A DNA stretch of 64,000 bases from SAR86 cluster bacterium SAR86A (GTDB lineage Bacteria; Pseudomonadota; Gammaproteobacteria; Magnimaribacterales; D2472): assembly GCA_000252525.1 (NCBI GenBank), contig JH611156.1:348785-412784 (forward strand), in the 5' to 3' direction. Of the stretch, positions 2,812-5,904 are shown piece after piece. The translations under genes and the position numbers were made by a program. Numbering within the stretch: the stretch's first letter is position 1; the number at the start of each line of letters is the position of its first letter. Under the pieces are notes generated by a model that was given only the letters and a program-made list of their open reading frames with translations, ran no database searches and had not been told where the DNA came from.

Positions 2812-4074
2812 TTATTTAAATTCTGGATAAGCTTCAATACCTATCTCAGAAACATCAAGACCAGCGTCTTGTTCTTCATCAGTTGCTCTAATTGGCATCA
2901 CCATATTAATAAACTTAACTACACCGTAGCTAGCAACATATGTAAATGCAGCAATCATAACAACACCAGTAAGTTGGCCAAGGAAATCAGCTCCACCTGT
3001 AAGACTTACCACGAGCACACCATAAATGCCCACAATACCGTGAGCAGATATAGCGCCTACAGGGTCATCGATTCCTCTTTTCTCTAAAAATAGAATAGAG
3101 AAGTAAACTATTATTCCTCCAATTGCTCCAACGATAACGGATGTACCACCACTTGGGCTTAGAGGATCAGCAGTAATTGAAACTAAACCTGCAATAGCGC
3201 CATTGATAGCCATCGTTACATCCATTTTGCCTGTTAAAGCAAGACTTAATAACAATGCAGCTACAACACCACCTGCTGCAGCCATATTTGTATTTAAAAA
3301 TACTTGGCTAACTGCAGTAGCACTGCTAACTTCAGAAACTTTTAATTCTGAACCACCATTAAATCCGAACCAACCTAACCATAGTATCCATGCACCAAGT
3401 GCAGCCATTGGTATGTTTGATCCAGGCATTGGGTTAACAGAACCATCATAATTATATTTACCTTTTCTTGGTCCTAAGACTGTAACTACAGCTAAAGCCG
3501 CTGCTGCACCACATAAGTGCACGGTACCTGAACCAGCGTAGTCGGAATATGAAATACCCATTCCTTCAAATCCGCCGCCCCAGTTCCAAAATCCTTGAGT
3601 AGGATAAATAAAACCAGTTAATACAACAGCAAATAAAAAGAATGGCAATAATTTCATTCTTCCAGCAACTGCTCCTGAAACAATTGACATTGCAGTAGCA
3701 ACAAAAACTACTTGGAAAAAGAAGTCAGCTTGATGAGAATAGTAACCAACAAAATCACCATCTGCTATTGAGCCATCTGCTCCATACATAATAGGATCTG
3801 CTTCAGTAGAAGTTGATAGACCCCATGAGGTATCAATACCAGGAAATAGTCCGAAAAATGAACTGCTGCCTGAATACATAAGAGCAAATCCGCAAACTAA
3901 GTACATAATACATGCTATTGAATAGAGACCTAGGTTCTTAGTAACAATTTCAGATACATCTTTCTTTTGCACTAACCCTGCTTCAAGCATGGTAAAACCA
4001 GCAGCCATCCACATTACTAATGCACCTGCCATGACAGCATAGAACGTATCAAGTGCAAATTTTAATTCTTCCAT
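2812..4074 (-). CDS. amtB: Ammonium channel AmtB
   Basis: A 420-residue, about 11-helix inner-membrane ammonium channel. The two pore histidines sit in GTVHLCGAAAA (about residue 185) and AISAHGIVGIYG (about residue 345). The GFNGGSEL segment is also typical. There is an acidic/aromatic insertion after helix 2 (about residues 75-110) containing several D and G residues, seen in some marine Amt proteins. The gene follows glnK by 12 bases in the torF-glnK-amtB order, as expected for a channel gated by PII. Expression probably depends on the sigma-54 promoter upstream of torF. Confidence 0.95.
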   Translation of the reverse strand: MEELKFALDTFYAVMAGALVMWMAAGFTMLEAGLVQKKDVSEIVTKNLGLYSIACIMYLVCGFALMYSGSSSFFGLFPGIDTSWGLSTSTEADPIMYGADGSIADGDFVGYYSHQADFFFQVVFVATAMSIVSGAVAGRMKLLPFFLFAVVLTGFIYPTQGFWNWGGGFEGMGISYSDYAGSGTVHLCGAAAALAVVTVLGPRKGKYNYDGSVNPMPGSNIPMAALGAWILWLGWFGFNGGSELKVSEVSSATAVSQVFLNTNMAAAGGVVAALLLSLALTGKMDVTMAINGAIAGLVSITADPLSPSGGTSVIVGAIGGIIVYFSILFLEKRGIDDPVGAISAHGIVGIYGVLVVSLTGGADFLGQLTGVVMIAAFTYVASYGVVKFINMVMPIRATDEEQDAGLDVSEIGIEAYPEFK

Positions 4075-4086
4075 AATTATTTCTCC

Positions 4087-5015
<929 letters not shown>

Positions 5016-5051
5016 TTAATTTCTCCTGTTAAAATATACTCACCTATATAG

Positions 5052-5069
5052 ATGCAATTTATATGCCAA
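5052..5069 (-). promoter_or_regulatory. Sigma-54 (RpoN) -24/-12 promoter of torF-glnK-amtB
   Basis: On the minus strand the sequence reads TTGGCATATAAATTGCAT. GG and GC are exactly ten bases apart, as required for RpoN, and both half-sites (TGGCA, TTGCA) are near consensus. Transcription would start near 5043, about 28 bases before the torF ATG and just ahead of its AGGAGA site. RpoN/NtrC control of glnK-amtB operons is well established in other proteobacteria. I did not find a clear NtrC site upstream. Confidence 0.7.
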
Positions 5070-5101: not shown

Positions 5102-5107
5102 TATAAT
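5102..5107 (+). promoter_or_regulatory. -10 box of the SDR gene
   Basis: A perfect TATAAT lies 26 bases before the ATG at 5134, with a good ribosome site (TTGGAG) between them. No clear -35 hexamer is visible in the A/T runs upstream. The element points away from the sigma-54 promoter at 5052-5069. Confidence 0.4.
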
Positions 5108-5133: not shown

Positions 5134-5904
5134 ATGAACTTAGACAATAAAGTAGCACTTGTAACAGGCGGTGCGTCGGGACTTGGTCAAGCAACTGTTG
5201 AAAAATTCGTTGAGAAAGGTGCAAAGACAGTAATTTTAGATATTAATGAAGACAATGCTAATAAAATTATAGAAAACCTTGGTGATGACAATGTTATGTT
5301 TGTTTCTACCAACATAATGGAAGAAGAGCCTGTAGTAAATGCCATTAATCAGATTAAAGATAAATTTGGTGGATTGCACATAGCAGTCAATTGTGCAGGA
5401 ACTGGCTATCCAGGTAGGATTTTAGGCAAAGAGGCGCCACATCCACTTGATGCATTTCAATTTATTATCAACTTAAACTTAGTAGGAACGTTTAATGTTA
5501 TGAGAATTGCTGCAGAACTAATGGATAAAAATGAGCCTGATGAGAAAGGCGAGAAAGGAGTCATTATCAATACAGCTTCAGTAGCAGGCTATGAAGGTCA
5601 AATTGGACAATCAGCATACAGTGCCTCAAAAGCAGGAGTTATTGGATTAACACTCACTGCTGCAAGAGATCTCGCTAGACATGCCGTAAGGGTTTGTACA
5701 ATTGCTCCAGGTATTTTTGATACACCTTTGATGCAGTTAGCACCTGATAAAGTTAGAGATCCTTTGTTAGAGTCAACCCAATTCCCACATAGATTTGGAC
5801 AACCATCAGAATTTGCTGATTTAGCAGTTCACATTGTTGAAAATGCTTACTTAAACGGCGAAACAATTAGACTAGATTCTGGTATGAGGATGAAGCCTAG
5901 ATAG
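5134..5904 (+). CDS. SDR oxidoreductase, 3-hydroxyacyl-CoA dehydrogenase type 2 (HSD10-like)
   Basis: A 256-residue short-chain dehydrogenase. It has the NAD-binding TGGASGLG (residues 11-18), NCAGTG (about 87-92), catalytic Ser in NTASVAG and Tyr-Lys in YSASK (about 166-170). The PHPLDAFQFIINLNLVGTFNVMR region and the long loop before VIINTAS are characteristic of the HSD17B10/3-hydroxy-2-methylbutyryl-CoA dehydrogenase group. It therefore probably oxidises 3-hydroxyacyl-CoA in fatty acid or isoleucine breakdown. The gene is monocistronic, and its stop abuts that of the opposing small gene. Confidence 0.85.
   Translation: MNLDNKVALVTGGASGLGQATVEKFVEKGAKTVILDINEDNANKIIENLGDDNVMFVSTNIMEEEPVVNAINQIKDKFGGLHIAVNCAGTGYPGRILGKEAPHPLDAFQFIINLNLVGTFNVMRIAAELMDKNEPDEKGEKGVIINTASVAGYEGQIGQSAYSASKAGVIGLTLTAARDLARHAVRVCTIAPGIFDTPLMQLAPDKVRDPLLESTQFPHRFGQPSEFADLAVHIVENAYLNGETIRLDSGMRMKPR

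Follow-up and report, generated by a model that had tools for sequence, protein, structure and literature searches.

In enteric bacteria, the glnK-amtB genes lie behind a promoter of the GG-N10-GC type, with NtrC as the activator. SAR86 cluster bacterium SAR86A resembles these bacteria in that a GG-N10-GC element precedes its genes for PII and the ammonium channel and in possessing NtrC, but differs in that torF comes first, the genome is small (1.25 Mb; 91.9% complete), a single full activator was found, and the search for an enhancer recognised none in the window, i.e. the whole 64,000-nucleotide stretch of DNA analysed here (C1:348785-412784 of the SAR86A genome, G000). According to the available excerpts of PMC3023670, the nlmA(orf1)-glnK-amtB operon of Herbaspirillum seropedicae depends on NtrC and is strongly induced when nitrogen is limiting. 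There, as in SAR86A, a gene for an envelope protein precedes glnK and amtB in one operon, so that nitrogen control of such a gene has a precedent; H. seropedicae is, however, a betaproteobacterium, and NtrC control was measured there, whereas it is only predicted in SAR86. NtrC proteins without GAFTGA, acting with sigma-70, are described for Caulobacter and Rhodobacter capsulatus (PMC10274813, excerpts available). The excerpts of PMC9277239 deal with charge in marine Amt proteins; on sigma-54/NtrC control of torF-glnK-amt they contain nothing. Full-text literature on SAR86 together with sigma-54, NtrC or rpoN yielded no article about SAR86, judged by title, and none was found on 'glnK amtB' together with TorF.

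We consider it very likely that the element at 5052-5069 of the window functions as a sigma-54 promoter for torF-glnK-amt and is activated by NtrC when nitrogen is short. Promoters of this kind are known; what is new is the proposed erosion series of the circuit in related families.

The torF-glnK-amt operon and the site upstream

The earlier note on this DNA had placed the site ahead of a PII-ammonium channel operon, and the family matches bear this out. The features of the region are the following:

5052..5069, minus strand: predicted sigma-54 promoter, -24/-12 elements TTGGCATATAAATTGCAT (sequence; conserved before torF in 49/50 SAR86 loci)
5042, minus strand: expected transcription start (+1), placed by spacing from the GC (sigma-54 consensus)
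5023..5027, minus strand: AGGAG ribosome-binding site of torF (read from sequence)
4425..5015, minus strand: torF, 196 aa, TorF family putative porin (Gcw_chp; TIGR02001, PF09694)
4087..4425, minus strand: glnK, 112 aa, PII protein (PF00543, E 5e-32), T-loop Tyr51 (read from sequence)
2812..4074, minus strand: amt, 420 aa, ammonium transporter, marine subtype (TIGR03644)
5134..5904, plus strand: short-chain dehydrogenase gene, divergent, outside the operon (PF00106, E 7e-50)
5102..5107, plus strand: TATAAT, likely sigma-70 -10 box of the divergent gene (sequence; inference)

TorF and Amt exceed their curated cut-offs (TIGR02001, 92.7 bits, cut-off 47.15; TIGR03644, 555 bits, cut-off 514). GlnK obtained 170.5 bits with NF007946, below the curated equivalog cut-off of 181; its PII status comes from PF00543, and the gene is named glnK here because it is placed before amt. 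The torF and glnK genes overlap by 1 base, and a 12-base gap separates glnK from amt. Going by its family name, TorF may be an outer-membrane pore. A TATAAT-like block on the plus strand is seen again in many relatives. A 1.9-kb piece at G000:C1:346843-348764 (L295:3843-5765) carries another copy of glnK and amt together with an end of torF; it has 20-base runs of N on both sides, the window beginning right after the second run, and is probably a scaffolding artefact or a strain variant rather than a true duplication.

Read from 5069 to 5052 on the minus strand, the window sequence is TTGGCATATAAATTGCAT, with GG at 5067-5066 and GC at 5055-5054 and, as had been claimed, exactly ten bases in between; the -24/-12 core GG-N10-GC, with TTGGCA and TTGC, is present before torF. 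The end of this 18-mer lies 36 bases from the torF ATG (5015-5013), and the distance of 37 given previously is right for the 17-mer. If the C of the GC is taken as -12, the +1 of torF would fall at about 5042, where the earlier note had 5043.

A match of this kind could in principle arise by chance in AT-rich intergenic DNA, torF-glnK-amt being read from a sigma-70 promoter, and the loose scans agree with such an origin: at 3 mismatches the consensus matched the window 57 times vs 46.4 expected, which is no enrichment and makes a loose match in the window uninformative, and 12 of the 16 one-mismatch genome sites examined (L016-L031) fall inside genes, for which reason loose scans were discarded as evidence. 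With 2 mismatches, the genome gave 357 matches to the consensus and 59 to the reversed pattern. Since the loose scan is not enriched, the case must rest on the strict form of the site and on its conservation. The window contains the strict form, TTGGCAYNNNNWTTGCW, a single time, and none of 40 order-3 Markov copies of the window contains it; searching the whole SAR86A genome for more GG-N10-GC sites, as had been proposed, turned up the strict form 4 times.

Conservation of the site before torF

By glnK, the closest relatives with a name belong to SAR86. Among 80 glnK loci from named genomes, 51 were taken as SAR86 (L043-L091, L097 and L115), some of them from records titled just Proteobacteria or Gammaproteobacteria; omission of L091, which ends short of torF, left 50 SAR86 torF loci. 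The site is found before torF in 49 of them, at a distance of 27-50 bases, and the 50th (L087) has a run of N there. The ten positions of TTGGCA and TTGC are invariant; they are fixed by the search pattern, yet no readable locus failed. The columns flanking the site drift among these loci, and retention of the site amid such drift argues against the chance match, a reading that, given the conservation, appears already close to refuted and that we regard as extremely improbable.

Strict sites over the genus and the candidate regulon

Further evidence against a chance origin comes from the genus as a whole: the strict pattern occurs at 94 sites in 34 genomes vs 0 for the reversed control, with at least one strict site in 33 of the 34. 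Of 93 distinct sites, 73 precede seven recurring targets, assigned by position relative to genes:

torF-glnK-amt: 29 of 93 distinct sites
128-135-aa protein, upstream of msrB in G000: 18 of 93
TonB-receptor-like protein, named from sequence: 8 of 93
36-aa ORF: 6 of 93
second amtB: 5 of 93
small secreted protein, about 93 aa: 5 of 93
glutamine synthetase: 2 of 93

The other 20 distinct sites, inside genes or before non-recurring genes, are regarded as chance or unproven. All 4 strict sites of SAR86A precede recurring targets (torF, a 129-aa gene, the TonB receptor and the 36-aa ORF). The pattern TGGCA-N6-TTGCW has 8 sites in this genome; four at which the stricter pattern failed (L005, L007, L010 and L011) are intragenic or sit at a gene end and are not claimed. 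The TonB-receptor-like gene is divergent from a permease-like gene wherever the flank was read. The 129-aa protein (site G000:C1:213249, L013; gene L006:1543-1932) has no Pfam or NCBIfam family match; its predicted structure (pLDDT 84, pTM 0.78) matches MarR-type regulators in Foldseek (best E 9.3e-4), so that a MarR-type fold is predicted.

Sigma-54 and NtrC in SAR86A

The earlier note predicted that this organism keeps RpoN and an NtrC-type activator, and both are there. What it predicted for the genome was borne out throughout, and its reading of the site is well supported. RpoN (421 aa) is complete, with AID, CBD and DBD domains, and scores above the TIGR02395 cut-off; NtrB (NF008293, 270.8 vs 240) and NtrC (TIGR01818, 637.6 vs 558.6) pass their curated cut-offs. 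NtrC has a receiver, an AAA+ domain and a Fis-type HTH, its loop reads GSFTGA, likewise in 9/9 NtrCs read in the genus, and the ntrB-ntrC pair is glnA-linked, lying downstream of a 323-aa glutamine synthetase gene. A scan of the genome for the sigma-54 activator domain found one full domain, in NtrC (E 2.9e-74), the remainder being two weak pieces in a single 748-aa frame.

With this machinery, nitrogen shortage would be signalled by PII through NtrB, leading to phosphorylated NtrC. As the sole full enhancer-binding protein found in the genome, NtrC would bind upstream of the torF site and, at the expense of ATP, open the sigma-54 polymerase waiting at 5052-5069, and the opened promoter would raise TorF, GlnK and Amt together. 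Both the binding of NtrC upstream of torF and the response to ammonium are predictions from sequence.

No convincing NtrC enhancer was recognised upstream of torF in the window, the best candidate agreeing at 7 of 10 positions, and some other boxes of relatives do have a perfect TGCAC-N7-GTGCA palindrome 33-75 bases upstream, a motif found in none of the shuffled controls. Both observations would suit a real sigma-54 promoter at which NtrC nitrogen control is secondary, the operon being mainly sigma-70-driven or NtrC acting without a bound enhancer. Against this stand the facts that no second full enhancer-binding protein was found beside NtrC, that NtrC carries a Fis-type HTH and that the targets are nitrogen and uptake genes, and we judge a secondary role of NtrC to be unlikely. 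Shared inverted repeats upstream of 80 sites are mainly A/T runs.

Some other upstream regions may be mentioned here. The region upstream of glnA in SAR86A (L216:8529-8673) contains NtrC-like TGCAC/GTGCA repeats without a sigma-54 box; two relatives (L125, L151) do carry a sigma-54 box upstream of glnA. Upstream of glnK-amt in f3g8, a genus within one of the rpoN-less families considered below, two TTAGTGCAAA-like half-sites lie 42 bases apart with no sigma-54 box left (L277, L279), and these are perhaps NtrC sites working with sigma-70.

The rpoN-less sister families

In 60 genomes of the order, rpoN was found in 35/36 genomes of family f1, 7/8 of f2, 1/8 of f3 (a fragment) and 0/8 of f4; G010 (85% complete) and G057 (82%) may be without it owing to gaps in their assemblies. 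A full-length RpoN model run on 19 genomes matched only G036, the positive control, and the fragment in G037. This remnant is a 78-codon ORF corresponding to the C-terminal end of RpoN (L294:2356-2592), flanked by lptB-like and mgtE-like genes, and SAR86A has rpoN in the same place. The earlier statement that many streamlined marine bacteria have lost RpoN thus holds for two families within SAR86, the one group tested.

The site before glnK-amt is absent in 6/6 f3 genomes (8-9 of 12 positions), for which adjacency to amt was read in G037, G040 and G055 and assumed via a shared upstream tRNA in G043, G046 and G049; in each of the 8 f2 genomes, one or more glnK-amt copies are preceded by a site scoring 11-12 of 12. 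As an internal control, the glnB-type copies beside a waaA-like gene show no site, with 9 of 12 at best (G000, G034, G035). The strict pattern is also found in some rpoN-less f3 and f4 genomes, and single matches without conservation therefore mean little.

A similar distribution is seen for the 36-aa ORF, which encodes the microprotein MTDYILRVIHFCKTEPLWAFAFFMCGYIIGETYFIL and lies outside the window at G000:C1:505367-505477 (L009:1528-1638), flanked by a tRNA-like sequence on one side and on the other by a 302-aa gene in opposing orientation. A model built from six copies finds matches in 49 of the 151 genomes of the order (E 0.01). The pN/pS of 0.31 (11 f1 copies) and the differences by codon position (478/298/918) are as expected of a coding ORF; the product, without match in Pfam or NCBIfam, is probably a single membrane helix. 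Loci for a comparison of upstream regions were obtained from 30 of the 49 matching genomes: the site precedes the ORF in 15/15 f1 loci (score 11-12 of 12) and in 0/15 f3/f4 loci (12 f3 and 3 f4, scoring just 7-8 of 12). That rpoN-less families lack the site both before glnK-amt and before the microprotein gene is a third point against a chance match, family-level contrasts of this sort depending on few loss events. Relatives of the microprotein persist even where rpoN and PII are lost.

NtrC in the rpoN-less relatives

Two different alterations of NtrC were found in f3. In f3g8, GAFKGA stands in place of GAFTGA in 14/14 genomes read (L285-L288, L339-L348), and in f3g9 the protein is reduced to 256-258 aa with receiver and HTH, the whole AAA+ domain being deleted (3/3; L289, L290, L291). 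GAFTGA is kept in f3g5 (2/2 NtrCs) and f3g19 (6/6). No full NtrC was found in G154, the g8 genome G074 and the f2 genome G048, and neither full NtrC nor PII was found in 8/8 f4 genomes; G095, G103 and G162 were left out of the loop counts. The search for rpoN covered 4/14 g8 genomes, 3/3 g9, 1/2 g5 and 0/6 g19, and found it in none of the 3 f3g9 genomes. In the NtrC tree, g9 falls outside g8+g5+g19 (support 1.0; f3 clade 0.92; g8 weakly supported, 0.28), so that the two lesions look separate. A rule of the form 'no rpoN, no GAFTGA' was rejected because f3g5 and f3g19 keep the motif. Its retention by the f3g5 NtrC, also in G037 with just an rpoN remnant, means that GAFTGA alone is no proof of sigma-54 use and that the decay follows no strict rule.

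The altered proteins resemble the NtrCs of Caulobacter and R. capsulatus in that the sigma-54 contact loop is altered or lost; in those bacteria, however, a stretch around GAFTGA has been deleted, and Caulobacter has further activators that retain the motif (PMC10274813, excerpts available), whereas the SAR86 lesions are a T to K replacement in f3g8 and complete loss of the AAA+ domain in f3g9, both in genomes that lack rpoN. We moderately favour the view that the sigma-54/NtrC circuit was dismantled in steps within SAR86 and that the 36-aa microprotein was one of its targets and outlived it. In such a series, f1 and f2 would have retained rpoN, NtrC and the boxes; f3 would have lost rpoN, along with the boxes before glnK-amt and the microprotein gene, its NtrC being hit by two different lesions, replacement of the contact threonine (T to K) in f3g8 and removal of the AAA+ motor in f3g9, where the remaining receiver and Fis-type HTH would work with sigma-70; and f4 would have lost NtrC and PII altogether.

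Significance for SAR86

SAR86 bacteria abound in surface seawater but are difficult to grow in the laboratory, and the literature has little to say about the regulation of nitrogen uptake in such streamlined cells. Because the circuit is whole and comprises a single full activator and few conserved targets, much of the regulon is readable from sequence, and a regulon read in this way can be tested in field metatranscriptomes. The sister families constitute a natural rpoN knockout, and the altered NtrCs of the rpoN-less families make it possible to test directly how an enhancer-binding protein may turn into a sigma-70 regulator.
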